A model generated the notes under the pieces. It was not told the DNA's origin. It saw nothing but the letters and a program-made list of their open reading frames with translations, and searched no databases. This document shows, piece after piece, positions 611 to 6,033 of a stretch of DNA of 64,000 nucleotides; positions within the stretch are counted from its first letter, which is position 1, and each line of letters opens with the position of its first letter. The DNA is taken from positions 2,905,001 to 2,969,000 of the forward strand of contig OY282353.1 in the NCBI GenBank assembly GCA_958295465.1. Direction: 5' to 3'. Position numbers and translations under genes: made by a program. This stretch comes from an uncultured Gammaproteobacteria bacterium. GTDB taxonomy: Bacteria; Pseudomonadota; Gammaproteobacteria; HK1.

Positions 611-1879
611 ATGTCGTACCGACCTTCCAGTAAAGTGTTGTTCCTGACGAACTGTTCGCTGACCAAGACGAGAGGAGGAATTCCCGAATACGATGAGCAA
701 GAAGCAATAACGTCGGTGTTGCCGACATCTCTCAAGAATCGGTTTCTTGATCGGCGAGAGAAGGCGCTCCAATATGTCAAAGTGGCGCGCGAATTCACTT
801 GGCAAGGTACGCCTGTGTCGGAGCTTGAATTCAATAAGAATCTTGCCAAAGGAAAGGACTTTGGAGGAAGGCGCACGTGCGCTTATTTGCCTGCTCTCCA
901 TCGCTATGAAGGACGTTTCTTTCAAGCCTTGGGGCTGGATGGTCGGAACAAACTTGAAAACTCCAAGCACCATACATTGTTCTTGTCCGGTTTGTATGGA
1001 TTGTTGCGACCGCTTGAGCCGATTCAAATCTATAGTTGCCCATTGGATGATCATGTATCGAAATTTTGGCGAGAAAAATCCTTGCTTACAGAAATCCTAC
1101 TCAAATATATCAATCGCTTCAAAATCAGGCGAGTCATTGATTTGACCGCTATAGACGCCTACCGACAGTTGATCGATTGGGGAAAAATAGCCGAAACGAA
1201 AACAGACGTACTGCATTGTTTCCACGTTATGGCAGCAGGAGATTACGCGCTGACATTCTTTGGCATGTTACTTGGAGATTTACTCAATTTGTCGGAAGAT
1301 GATCTCGCAACATTGGAGTCGAATACCAGGAAGAGAGATGTGATTTTTCGATCTCTTGATGAAACGGAATTCGGTTTACCAAAGGAACATCCGCCTGAGA
1401 AACCGATTGAGCCAGAGCCCGAACCGATCTGGAAGTTCGCATCCACGTTACAATTCCGCAGGAAAGTGCGGGAATCTATGAATCAATTTACAAAGATAAT
1501 GCAAGCCGCCATGGATATTTGCAGAGAACCGATAGCCTGTCGTGAGAACACGATAGAACCATGGGAGGGCCGGGCATCCACGTGGCAATATAGGCTGGGT
1601 GATCTCCGCCTCATCTATCAACTTGATAAAGATAAGAGAATTGTATACTTCCAGAATATTCTGGTTCGCGAAGATTCCGGTGTCCTGAAAGTTCGAGAGC
1701 TCGTCGCAGAACTGAAATCGCACGGATTCGTTGAAACAAAGGGCGGTGGTAAAGGATCTCACCGGAAGTTCAAGCATCCGAGAATTCCCGGGGCTGTGAC
1801 GGTGAGCGGCGGGGCAGGAGACGATGCAAGTCCGGACTTGGTGCGTCAGGTTCAACGCGCAGTTGATCAAGTGATGTAA
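611..1879 (+). CDS. Three-domain fusion: YaaA-like + RelE-like + HicA-like toxin
   Basis: A 422-residue protein. Residues about 8-260 resemble the YaaA/DUF328 peroxide-stress family: an LFLTNCS opening, LHRYEGRFFQALG and the hallmark LSGLYGLLRPLEPIQIY. Residues about 280-355 look like a RelE/ParE mRNA interferase fold, with the strand pair YRLGDLRLIYQLDKD followed by an acidic/basic end. Residues about 362-422 match HicA (RELVAELKSHGFVETKG, then GSHRKFKHP with the catalytic-type GSH histidine, then a VTVSGG strand). The start is ATG 611, and no stop or frame slip separates the three parts. A HicB antitoxin follows 21 bp downstream, so the pair probably works as a TA module whose toxin carries extra domains. 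Base composition is clearly lower in GC than the flanking nuo genes, suggesting transfer. The domain calls are by eye. The combined architecture is one I do not recognise. Confidence 0.75.
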   Translation: MSYRPSSKVLFLTNCSLTKTRGGIPEYDEQEAITSVLPTSLKNRFLDRREKALQYVKVAREFTWQGTPVSELEFNKNLAKGKDFGGRRTCAYLPALHRYEGRFFQALGLDGRNKLENSKHHTLFLSGLYGLLRPLEPIQIYSCPLDDHVSKFWREKSLLTEILLKYINRFKIRRVIDLTAIDAYRQLIDWGKIAETKTDVLHCFHVMAAGDYALTFFGMLLGDLLNLSEDDLATLESNTRKRDVIFRSLDETEFGLPKEHPPEKPIEPEPEPIWKFASTLQFRRKVRESMNQFTKIMQAAMDICREPIACRENTIEPWEGRASTWQYRLGDLRLIYQLDKDKRIVYFQNILVREDSGVLKVRELVAELKSHGFVETKGGGKGSHRKFKHPRIPGAVTVSGGAGDDASPDLVRQVQRAVDQVM

Positions 1880-1900
1880 TAGAACGTCAGGAGGTGCCCG

Positions 1901-2122
1901 ATGAGGCCGAGTGACAGACACCACAAATGGATCGAGTGGAGCGACGAGGACAATGCCTACCTTGGGCGTTACCCCGACGTCATCACCGGGATTCACGGCA
2001 GCGACCCCATACGGTTGTACCGGGAACTCTGCGAAGTGGTGGATGACGTTCTGACCTCCTTCCAGGCATCCGGGCGCACGTTGCCGGAACCGATGACCAA
2101 GCCGATGCGCGAAGTGGCATGA
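1901..2122 (+). CDS. hicB: HicB-family antitoxin
   Basis: A 73-residue protein of the short HicB type: KWIEWSDEDNAYLGRYPDVITGIHG, then YRELCEVVDDVLTSFQASGRTLPEPM. This is the usual RNase-H-like HicB fold that binds and blocks HicA. The start ATG 1901 has a strong ribosome site (AGGAGGTG about 5 nt upstream). It lies 21 bp after the fusion toxin and is almost certainly co-transcribed with it. The toxin-before-antitoxin order is the normal order for hicAB. No separate DNA-binding domain is visible, so autoregulation would depend on the complex. Confidence 0.8.
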   Translation: MRPSDRHHKWIEWSDEDNAYLGRYPDVITGIHGSDPIRLYRELCEVVDDVLTSFQASGRTLPEPMTKPMREVA

Positions 2123-4206: not shown

Positions 4207-4740
4207 TCACAGGGGCGGAGCGGCGGCGTTTTCCAGGGCGCGCTCATGGGCCTGTCGCGACTCACGCCCGAAGCAGCACAGGACGATGCGGCGGAGGGAG
4301 GGATGCTCCGCGGCCTCCGCCGCCACCGTCCGGACCGCGATCTCCGCCGCACGCGGCGCCGGAAAGCCATAGGCGCCGGTCGAAATCGCCGGGAACGCGA
4401 TGGTCTCGACGCCGTGCGCGGAAGCGAGCCGGAGCGATTCCCGGTAGCAGCTCTCGAGAAGGGCCTCCTCGCCGTGGCCCCCTCCCCGCCATACCGGACC
4501 GACGGTATGGACGACGTGGCGGGCCGGAAGATCGTATGCGCCGGTGATACGGGCCTCACCGGTCGGACATCCGCCGAGCCGGCGGCATTCTTCGAGAAGC
4601 CGGGGGCCGGCCGCGCGATGGATTGCACCGTCCACGCCGCCCCCGCCGAGCAGTGATTCGTTCGCGGCGTTGACGATCGCATCCACCTCCAGCCGCGTGA
4701 TGTCACCTTCAATGACTTCGATACAGTTTGTTGCGTTCAT
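4207..4740 (-). CDS. Macrodomain protein (O-acetyl-ADP-ribose deacetylase type)
   Basis: A 177-residue single macrodomain. The N-terminus reads [39 protein letters not shown], with the NAAN and GGGVDGAIH motifs that bind ADP-ribose in the MacroD/YmdB class. [12 protein letters not shown] follows in the C-terminal half, supplying the second ligand loop. Such enzymes hydrolyse O-acetyl-ADP-ribose or remove mono-ADP-ribose from proteins or nucleic acids. The start is ATG 4740 on the minus strand. It is the only minus-strand gene in the accessory block inside nuo, and it is flanked by a 57-bp direct repeat. Being near RES and other NAD-linked toxins may be meaningful, but that is inference. Confidence 0.88.
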
Positions 4741-5369
4741 GGAGACCACCGTGTTTCCAGCTCCTTTCAGGAGACCGGCCAAGGATTCAATCCCGGCGAA
4801 CTCGCTACCCGCACGGGCACATTTGAAGCCGATATCTTCCACGCCTCGGAAGAATCGTGAACACACGCACTTCGAACTTGCTGACACGCGGAAGCTTGTG
4901 CGACGCCTTCGACAGTGAATCACCCACCCTCGGAGAACGCCGGCTCCGCAATCCGGCTCACTCCCTGGAACGCGAACATCCTGGCGCGGCGGCCTCGAAC
5001 AGGAGCGTGACCGTCGATGAGTGATAGACTCCGCCACCGTGTCATTGTGCGCCGGAGAGGAGCCCCGGCGCCGACCGCCACGGAGCCTCGACATGACGTT
5101 TGACGCGCCGTTGGACAGTCCCTTCTCCCCGAGTGAAGGCGTTGTGTGCCGCCACTTCGGCGGGATTCCGCTCATGAGTGCGTATCGAGCCCCGGCCGGT
5201 TCCCGGCCTTCCCCCGCGTGGACATGCTCGCCGTTCGCCGGCCTCGTGCCGCGGGAGAGTGGCGATCGGTTCACGCGATGCGTGTTCGAACGGCGCTACG
5301 CGGCCCGGCCGGACGTCAGGAAGGTCGAGCTGGAGATGGTGCCGGAACGGGACGGATGGTAGTACCGTC
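4741..5369. other. 629-bp stretch without a convincing gene
   Basis: It contains repeat copy 2 (4838-4894). No open frame here has a recognisable protein signature. An 89-residue frame from ATG 5092 reaches 5362, but its composition looks like the shadow of GC-rich DNA, and other frames are equally open. It is best read as eroded coding DNA between the divergent macrodomain gene and hicB. Confidence 0.4.
4838..4894. repeat. 57-bp direct repeat, copy 2
   Basis: Partner of 4051-4107 in the same orientation. It lies about 100 bp upstream of the macrodomain start on that gene's strand. Confidence 0.6.
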
Positions 5370-5651
5370 ATGAGCAAAGGTTCCGTCGAGACGAGCATGG
5401 AGCCCTGTGTCTACAAGTATCGGGTGCTGATCGAGCCGGCCGAGGAAGGCGGCTTCGTCGTCACCGCGCCCGCTCTTCCGGGCTGTGTCACGCAAGGCGA
5501 GACTCGGGATGAAGCCGTGGCGATGGCTCGCGACTGCATCGAGGGATTCCTGGCGTGTCTCGCCGAGGCGGGCGAACCCATCCCGGTGGAGCCGGAGCCC
5601 GCCGATGCCGTTGCGGTCTGGATGGAAGTGGCAGGGCCGGTCGCGGCGTGA
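5370..5651 (+). CDS. hicB: HicB-family antitoxin
   Basis: A 93-residue protein. Residues about 14-75 form the standard HicB fold: YKYRVLIEPAEEGGFVVTAPALPGCVTQGETRDEAVAMARDCIEGFLACLAEAGEPIPVEP. It should neutralise the HicA-like product encoded immediately downstream. No C-terminal helix-turn-helix is present, so it is the short form. The start is ATG 5370. Antitoxin-first order is common in this HicBA subtype. Confidence 0.85.
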   Translation: MSKGSVETSMEPCVYKYRVLIEPAEEGGFVVTAPALPGCVTQGETRDEAVAMARDCIEGFLACLAEAGEPIPVEPEPADAVAVWMEVAGPVAA

Positions 5652-6033
5652 GGGTCGCCTGCCGTCGCTTCGCCCGCGACGGCTCATCGCCGCATTGAAA
5701 CGTGGTGGTTTCGTGGAACGCCGGCAAACGGGGAGCCATCTCTTTCTGGCTCACCCCGATCGGCCCGGAATGCCTGTGCCCATTCCCATACATGCTCGCG
5801 AGTTGAAACGGGGCACGCTGGTAGCCATTCTCCGGCAGGCGGGAGTCACGGTCGAAGAGCTACGGGAGCTTCTTCGAGTGCTTTGCGTGTATGGAACGAG
5901 ACTGTTCCTCGCTCGTCTGCGATGCTGGCCGGGGCGCCCGCGATTCCGCGTAGCGCAATCGCCAGGCAAACGCGCCAGCGGTTGCCGCTCTGCGGCGTGG
6001 CTTGTGTCGGGCGCCGGCCGGACGCTTGCGTGA
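5611..6033 (+). CDS. hicA: HicA-family toxin with aberrant start and run-on C-terminus
   Basis: The core LPSLRPRRLIAALKRGGFVERRQTGSHLFLAHPDRPGMPVPIPIHARELKRGTLVAILRQAGVTVEELRELL is a full HicA dsRBD-like fold with the catalytic GSH histidine. Two things are odd. The natural start, a GTG overlapping the hicB stop at 5648, is in the wrong frame by one base, so either an internal TTG (5611) or CTG (5659) is used or the gene has a 1-nt deletion. At the other end the frame runs about 55 codons past the domain. It runs into a sequence shared with 37330-37374, which suggests that the original stop was lost by recombination. Activity is doubtful. Confidence 0.6.
   Translation: MRSGWKWQGRSRREGRLPSLRPRRLIAALKRGGFVERRQTGSHLFLAHPDRPGMPVPIPIHARELKRGTLVAILRQAGVTVEELRELLRVLCVYGTRLFLARLRCWPGRPRFRVAQSPGKRASGCRSAAWLVSGAGRTLA
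5886..5930. repeat. 45-bp repeat shared with 37330-37374
   Basis: The core ACTGTTCCTCGCTCGTCT is identical at both places and its flanks are similar. The copies are about 31 kb apart, one in the run-on tail of hicA and the other in a mosaic of RiPP gene fragments. Confidence 0.55.

Follow-up and report, generated by a model that had tools for sequence, protein, structure and literature searches.

A YaaA-RelE-HicA fusion protein with an adjoining hicB gene in an uncultured gammaproteobacterium: a probable secondary chimera of a YaaA-RelE family

Results

Organisation and integrity of the locus

Near the start of the window (the whole 64,000-nucleotide stretch of DNA analysed here, from an uncultured gammaproteobacterium), a forward-strand frame of 422 codons runs without interruption to a double stop (TAA TAG), and encodes a YaaA-like, a RelE-like and a HicA domain in a single chain, with a short hicB gene following after a gap of 21 bases:

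611..1879, + strand: YaaA-RelE-HicA fusion gene, 422 aa, with stop
611..1372, + strand: YaaA/DUF6884-superfamily domain, residues 1-254 (C15xxxK19 and LSGLYGLLRP conserved; PF03883 E 4.4e-11)
1373..1423, + strand: Pro/Glu-rich linker, residues 255-271, where the homology between loci L041 and L042 stops
1424..1678, + strand: RelE/ParE-fold domain, residues 272-356 (R333 and R353 retained, C-terminal tyrosine absent, WRYR changed to WQYR)
1679..1876, + strand: HicA domain, residues 357-422 (PF07927 E 3.6e-10; complete alpha-beta-beta-beta-alpha)
1889..1894, + strand: AGGAGG ribosome-binding site of hicB, read from the sequence
1901..2122, + strand: hicB antitoxin gene, encoding 73 aa with no DNA-binding domain (assigned through homologues, and UPF0150 matches in homologues)

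The original prediction, that three toxin- or stress-related families are fused in one chain with HicB encoded directly behind it, is borne out. Structure prediction of the chain, proposed at the time, was performed with AlphaFold2 and recovers both the RelE and the HicA fold, residues 1-98 being weak (pLDDT <50). Joining of separate genes by a sequencing error, which the prediction had named among the findings that would overturn it, was considered and rejected, with no single frameshift accounting for the RelE/HicA junction, and neither of the other two frames yielding the end of a RelE or the start of a HicA there, such that no frame offers a separate gene. An error is unlikely given these empty frames, the assembly of the contig as one 5.68-Mb chromosome, and divergence from paralogues that is saturated at synonymous sites and low at non-synonymous sites.

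Comparison with related sequences gives pN 0.125 against pS 0.756 for HicA, pN 0.24 against pS 0.80 for YaaA, and a dN/dS of 0.19 for hicB; within the limits set by saturation, these estimates show all parts of the locus to be under constraint, although that on HicA may be largely older than the fusion. The GC3 of the fusion gene is 0.48, compared with about 0.70 in its paralogues, and this lowered GC leaves room for decay of the gene. No promoter-like site was found.

The three-domain form was found in one genome only among those searched. Scans of genome contigs, 398 genomes of the phylum, 185 of relatives and 17 of the order revealed no second copy, and none was found in plasmids, phages or viral contigs; the contig scans used short peptide patterns, by which remote copies may be missed. 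The search of other genomes suggested with the original prediction thus returned nothing besides the window copy.

The YaaA, RelE and HicA domains

The Pfam YaaA match spans residues 43-195, with 43.2 bits against a gathering score of 29.6, whilst the NCBIfam YaaA equivalog score lies far out of reach (26.7 bits against 392). The CxxxK and LSGLYG motifs are invariant in six intact homologues, and for DUF6884, which is distantly related to YaaA, the Pfam authors regard CxxxK and LSAxxG as motifs that may belong to the active site (YaaA sources: PMC4834066, PMC11701544). Together with a remote match of the family profile to 5caj (E 0.007), the CxxxK and LSxxxG motifs link the domain to the YaaA (PF03883)/DUF6884 (PF21818) superfamily; 5caj is not among the top Foldseek rows, which are uninformative here owing to the poor modelling of residues 1-98. 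YaaA in its canonical form is a peroxide-stress protein that consists of one domain, whereas the window copy forms the N-terminus of a toxin chain and falls well below the NCBIfam cut-offs for YaaA. Its most likely contribution would be targeting or sensing.

Domain searches, to which the original prediction had been made subject, recover HicA above the gathering score at residues 362-416, with RelE sub-threshold by itself and backed by homologues and fold. Residues 357-420 of the model superpose on the dsRBD-like fold of HicA with Z 8.7 to 6g26, and the invariant HicA residues are kept, including the GKGSHRKF motif with its predicted catalytic histidine, H384. The conserved YQE motif is replaced by DLV. 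With the HicAB locus L069 of a relative as outgroup, nine changes are particular to the window HicA versus two to the HicA of L009, a separate hicAB pair on the same chromosome, and by this count the window HicA is the faster-evolving since the two split. HicA is most likely the working RNase of the chain, judging from the retained active site.

The Pfam RelE/ParE match of the window protein (residues 295-353, E 0.007) lies under threshold. Nonetheless, the RelE assignment is secure, owing to the matches of its homologues (ParE_toxin at E 4e-10 for the paralogue L008; ParE and YoeB at E 3e-5 to 4e-5 for L043, which passes the ParE cut-off), to a profile of eight family members that matches solved RelE toxins of Thermus, Pyrococcus and Mycobacterium (E 3e-7 to 2khe), and to the fold model, in which residues 272-356 adopt the BECR fold with Z 10.3 to 3oei (RelJK) and 6n90 (YoeB/ParE). 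R333 aligns with R61 of E. coli RelE, and R353 with R85 via the Pyrococcus alignment (R81/R85-equivalent). The tyrosine equivalent to Y87, kept by every relative readable at this position, is absent, the end of RelE that carries it having been replaced by the start of HicA, and the basic residue equivalent to K52 is Gln. The window RelE thus lacks the full catalytic Arg-Arg-Tyr set (R61, R81 and Y87 of E. coli RelE).

The original prediction held that either the RelE-like part is inactive or HicB controls both toxins. The former is the closer, although "weakened" describes the domain better than "inactive", the arginines being kept despite loss of the tyrosine and the basic residue; the RelE part of the window protein is probably weakened and mostly a spacer, as judged from its sequence. 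The latter finds no support, with YaaA-RelE present at seven loci lacking HicA and HicB. A chain in which RelE and HicA both cut RNA, HicB neutralising HicA and blocking RelE sterically, is accordingly quite improbable: the two retained arginines speak for it, since R61, R81 and Y87 are the most important residues of E. coli RelE and the lysines matter little (PMC2807027), but the Y87 equivalent is missing (Y87A lowers activity, PMC2807027), K52 is replaced by Gln, and relatives of the RelE domain occur without any HicB, which is thus not the RelE antitoxin of the family. As for a RelB/Phd-type antitoxin, only HicB lies directly behind the fusion gene in the window, and a non-exhaustive check of the ORFs flanking the relatives gave no adjacent antitoxin family.

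HicB and related hicAB pairs

For the 73-residue HicB itself, neither Pfam nor NCBIfam nor the PDB gave a convincing match. Homologues occur in about twenty gammaproteobacterial genomes, often directly behind hicA-like ORFs reading MPPKIRELI...GKGSHRNF...GDDAKxYQ, and UPF0150 is matched in four of nine sampled. The L009 pair is 73-75% identical in both genes (73% for HicB), and the short form of HicB is considered genuine because its length and its ending, PM(R/Q)(E/D)VA, are common to the window, L009 and L069. HicB most likely restrains the chain via HicA.

The anatomy of hicB fits class 1 HicAB, in which HicB has 60-90 aa and no DNA-binding domain (Gerdes 2024, PMC10865869), and an ordinary class 1 hicAB pair could be envisaged, with YaaA-RelE inert and HicA acting alone after proteolysis or from a start at CTG359. 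CTG codons do lie at residues 351 and 359, but close to the junction the HicA part lacks any ATG, GTG or TTG from which it could be read, and among the homologues YaaA is more conserved than RelE, making this reading highly improbable.

Several further toxin-antitoxin genes were observed. The hicA of L009 (3951-4381, - strand) has ACG where an ATG start is expected, and L069 (1501-2016, - strand) carries HicA and HicB in one open frame, possibly a fused HicAB. Shortly behind hicB, the window encodes an Xre/MbcA/ParS-type antitoxin (2310-2780, + strand; PF09722 E 2e-13), with a similar gene adjoining the YaaA-RelE paralogue at L007 (6937-7401, - strand). A second hic locus of the window (5373-5860, + strand) has the order hicB-hicA, a HicA-like frame lying behind that of HicB (PF15919 E 7e-12), and between both hic loci lies a gene for a macro-domain protein (4207-5274, - strand; PF01661 E 1e-47).

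The YaaA-RelE family and its neighbourhood

The same genome encodes two YaaA-RelE paralogues without HicA, 58 and 50% identical to the window protein, and a genome-wide scan yielded five more gammaproteobacterial YaaA-RelE loci (L041-L045), two of which, L044 and L045, have a frameshift within YaaA in their assembled sequence. A HicA HMM found no HicA in any of these seven loci. As judged from this distribution, YaaA-RelE is the older, ancestral unit and HicAB a secondary addition.

In L041, L042 and L044, a DUF6884 gene, a 250-aa M57B gene and YaaA-RelE follow in this order, whilst in L008 DUF6884 and M57B are fused and convergent to YaaA-RelE, and in L007 a remnant of M57B adjoins it. PADLOC models both neighbours, as PDC-M57A (DUF6884) and PDC-M57B, with E 5e-38 and 6e-78, and has no model for YaaA-RelE itself. 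PDC we take to denote a predicted phage-defence candidate; PDC-M57 is not named in the papers found by literature search, its defence function being that of a database candidate. The description of M57B as GIY-YIG-like is a reading of motifs, the structure model being unusable (pLDDT 41). M57B occurs in two of 398 phylum genomes, the present one included, and owing to this rarity its linkage to five of eight loci is not attributable to chance. A distant member of the phylum (L112) also has a single-domain YaaA-like gene about 60 bases from M57B. HMMs for M57B and DUF6884 gave no match in the window or in L011. By these comparisons, the YaaA-RelE family is small and patchy, and linked to a predicted anti-phage cassette.

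Another intact PDC-M57B gene lies at 2828 kb of the same genome (L113, 6034-6774, + strand), 17 kb from the L007 paralogue. Nuclease and repair-type genes also neighbour YaaA-RelE, with a DUF559 (Vsr-like) nuclease at L043 (5155-5820, + strand) and a uracil-DNA-glycosylase-like protein at L045 (2844-4010, - strand), both of DNA-repair or restriction type.

Between L041 (2307-4772) and L042 (2306-4772), DNA identity is 91% over DUF6884, M57B and YaaA and falls abruptly at the YaaA/RelE boundary, with the flanks and RelE differing outside this block; at the amino-acid level, most of YaaA shows an identity of 0.8-0.9, compared with about 0.4 past the linker. This looks like an exchange of the toxin end, or insertion of the block before a resident relE, and it is from this break that the RelE end is regarded as a replaceable effector. 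L007 resembles L041 less than L042 does in YaaA, but more than L042 does in RelE. RelE diverges faster than YaaA in all compared pairs except L008-L043, where the rates are similar. Seen in this way, the window copy with its HicA represents a further event of this type at the C-terminus.

Discussion

The YaaA-RelE ancestry of the chain, the predicted anti-phage cassette of its relatives, and the secondary nature of HicAB were all missed by the original prediction. A chance deletion may have joined relE to hicA to leave a non-toxic, functionless relic with hicB left over, and this would suit the presence of the fusion in a single genome, the faster evolution of HicA with its altered YQE motif, the lost RelE tyrosine, the reduced GC3, the missing M57 partner genes at the window locus, and the relics of the family nearby, namely the fragment L067 and the M57B remnant of L007. 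In contrast, the 422 codons have stayed open despite saturated synonymous sites relative to the paralogues, with non-synonymous change limited, and the HicA active-site residues, the YaaA motifs and the strong ribosome-binding site of hicB are all retained. Decay is therefore considered unlikely, although it deserves serious weight.

We favour, with a probability of roughly 0.6, a secondary chimera in which a YaaA-RelE protein joined a class 1-like hicAB pair, with HicA working, HicB silencing it, YaaA targeting or sensing, and RelE weakened. In this family, the RelE-like C-terminus is a toxin end open to exchange, attached to a conserved domain of YaaA/DUF6884 type for nucleic-acid binding or, presumably, sensing. 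One YaaA-RelE copy, apart from M57 genes, would have become joined to a complete hicAB pair, losing the start of hicA so that HicA is now read as the C-terminal domain, with hicB staying a separate gene under its own strong ribosome-binding site. Binding of HicB to HicA would keep the entire chain silent. Once HicB is lost, as might happen during phage infection or stress, HicA would cut RNA, and YaaA would either direct the enzyme to nucleic acid or make it responsive to damage or foreign DNA.

A more speculative and rather unlikely extension is that the family comprises modular anti-phage effectors, whose YaaA-type part would sense DNA damage or modification, act with DUF6884 and a GIY-YIG-like nuclease, and carry exchangeable RNase toxins at its C-terminal side, the window copy having become HicB-gated through capture of HicA. 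Whilst PDC-M57 (A: DUF6884; B: GIY-YIG-like) adjoins the YaaA-RelE relatives, neither component was found at the window locus.

The absence of a described toxin-antitoxin system with this layout, as originally claimed, agrees with the survey of HicA contexts (PMC10865869) and with the main text of that of multidomain RelE/ParE toxins (PMC11980606). The locus resembles class 1 HicAB in having hicA first with a short, tightly linked hicB, and in its HicA fold and GSH motif, but HicA of this class is free-standing with 60-85 aa, whereas here it forms the end of a chain of 422 aa; a fusion of HicA with YaaA or RelE is absent from all 14 HicAB classes described, of which class 14 is SMC-HicA (PMC10865869). 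The RelE fold and catalytic arginines are shared with the multidomain RelE/ParE (BECR) toxins as described in the main text of Gerdes 2025 (PMC11980606), which does not mention a YaaA fusion, whereas the C-terminal tyrosine is lost and a RelB/Phd-type antitoxin was not found here.

The window protein stacks two RNase toxin folds on one DNA-binding-type domain, and its route of toxin capture is traceable, since the YaaA-RelE intermediate is clear and a donor-like hicAB pair lies in the same genome. YaaA, a peroxide-stress protein of unclear activity, is now connected both with toxins and with a cassette predicted to act in phage defence, and this link opens a direct approach to the recognition targets of YaaA and DUF6884.
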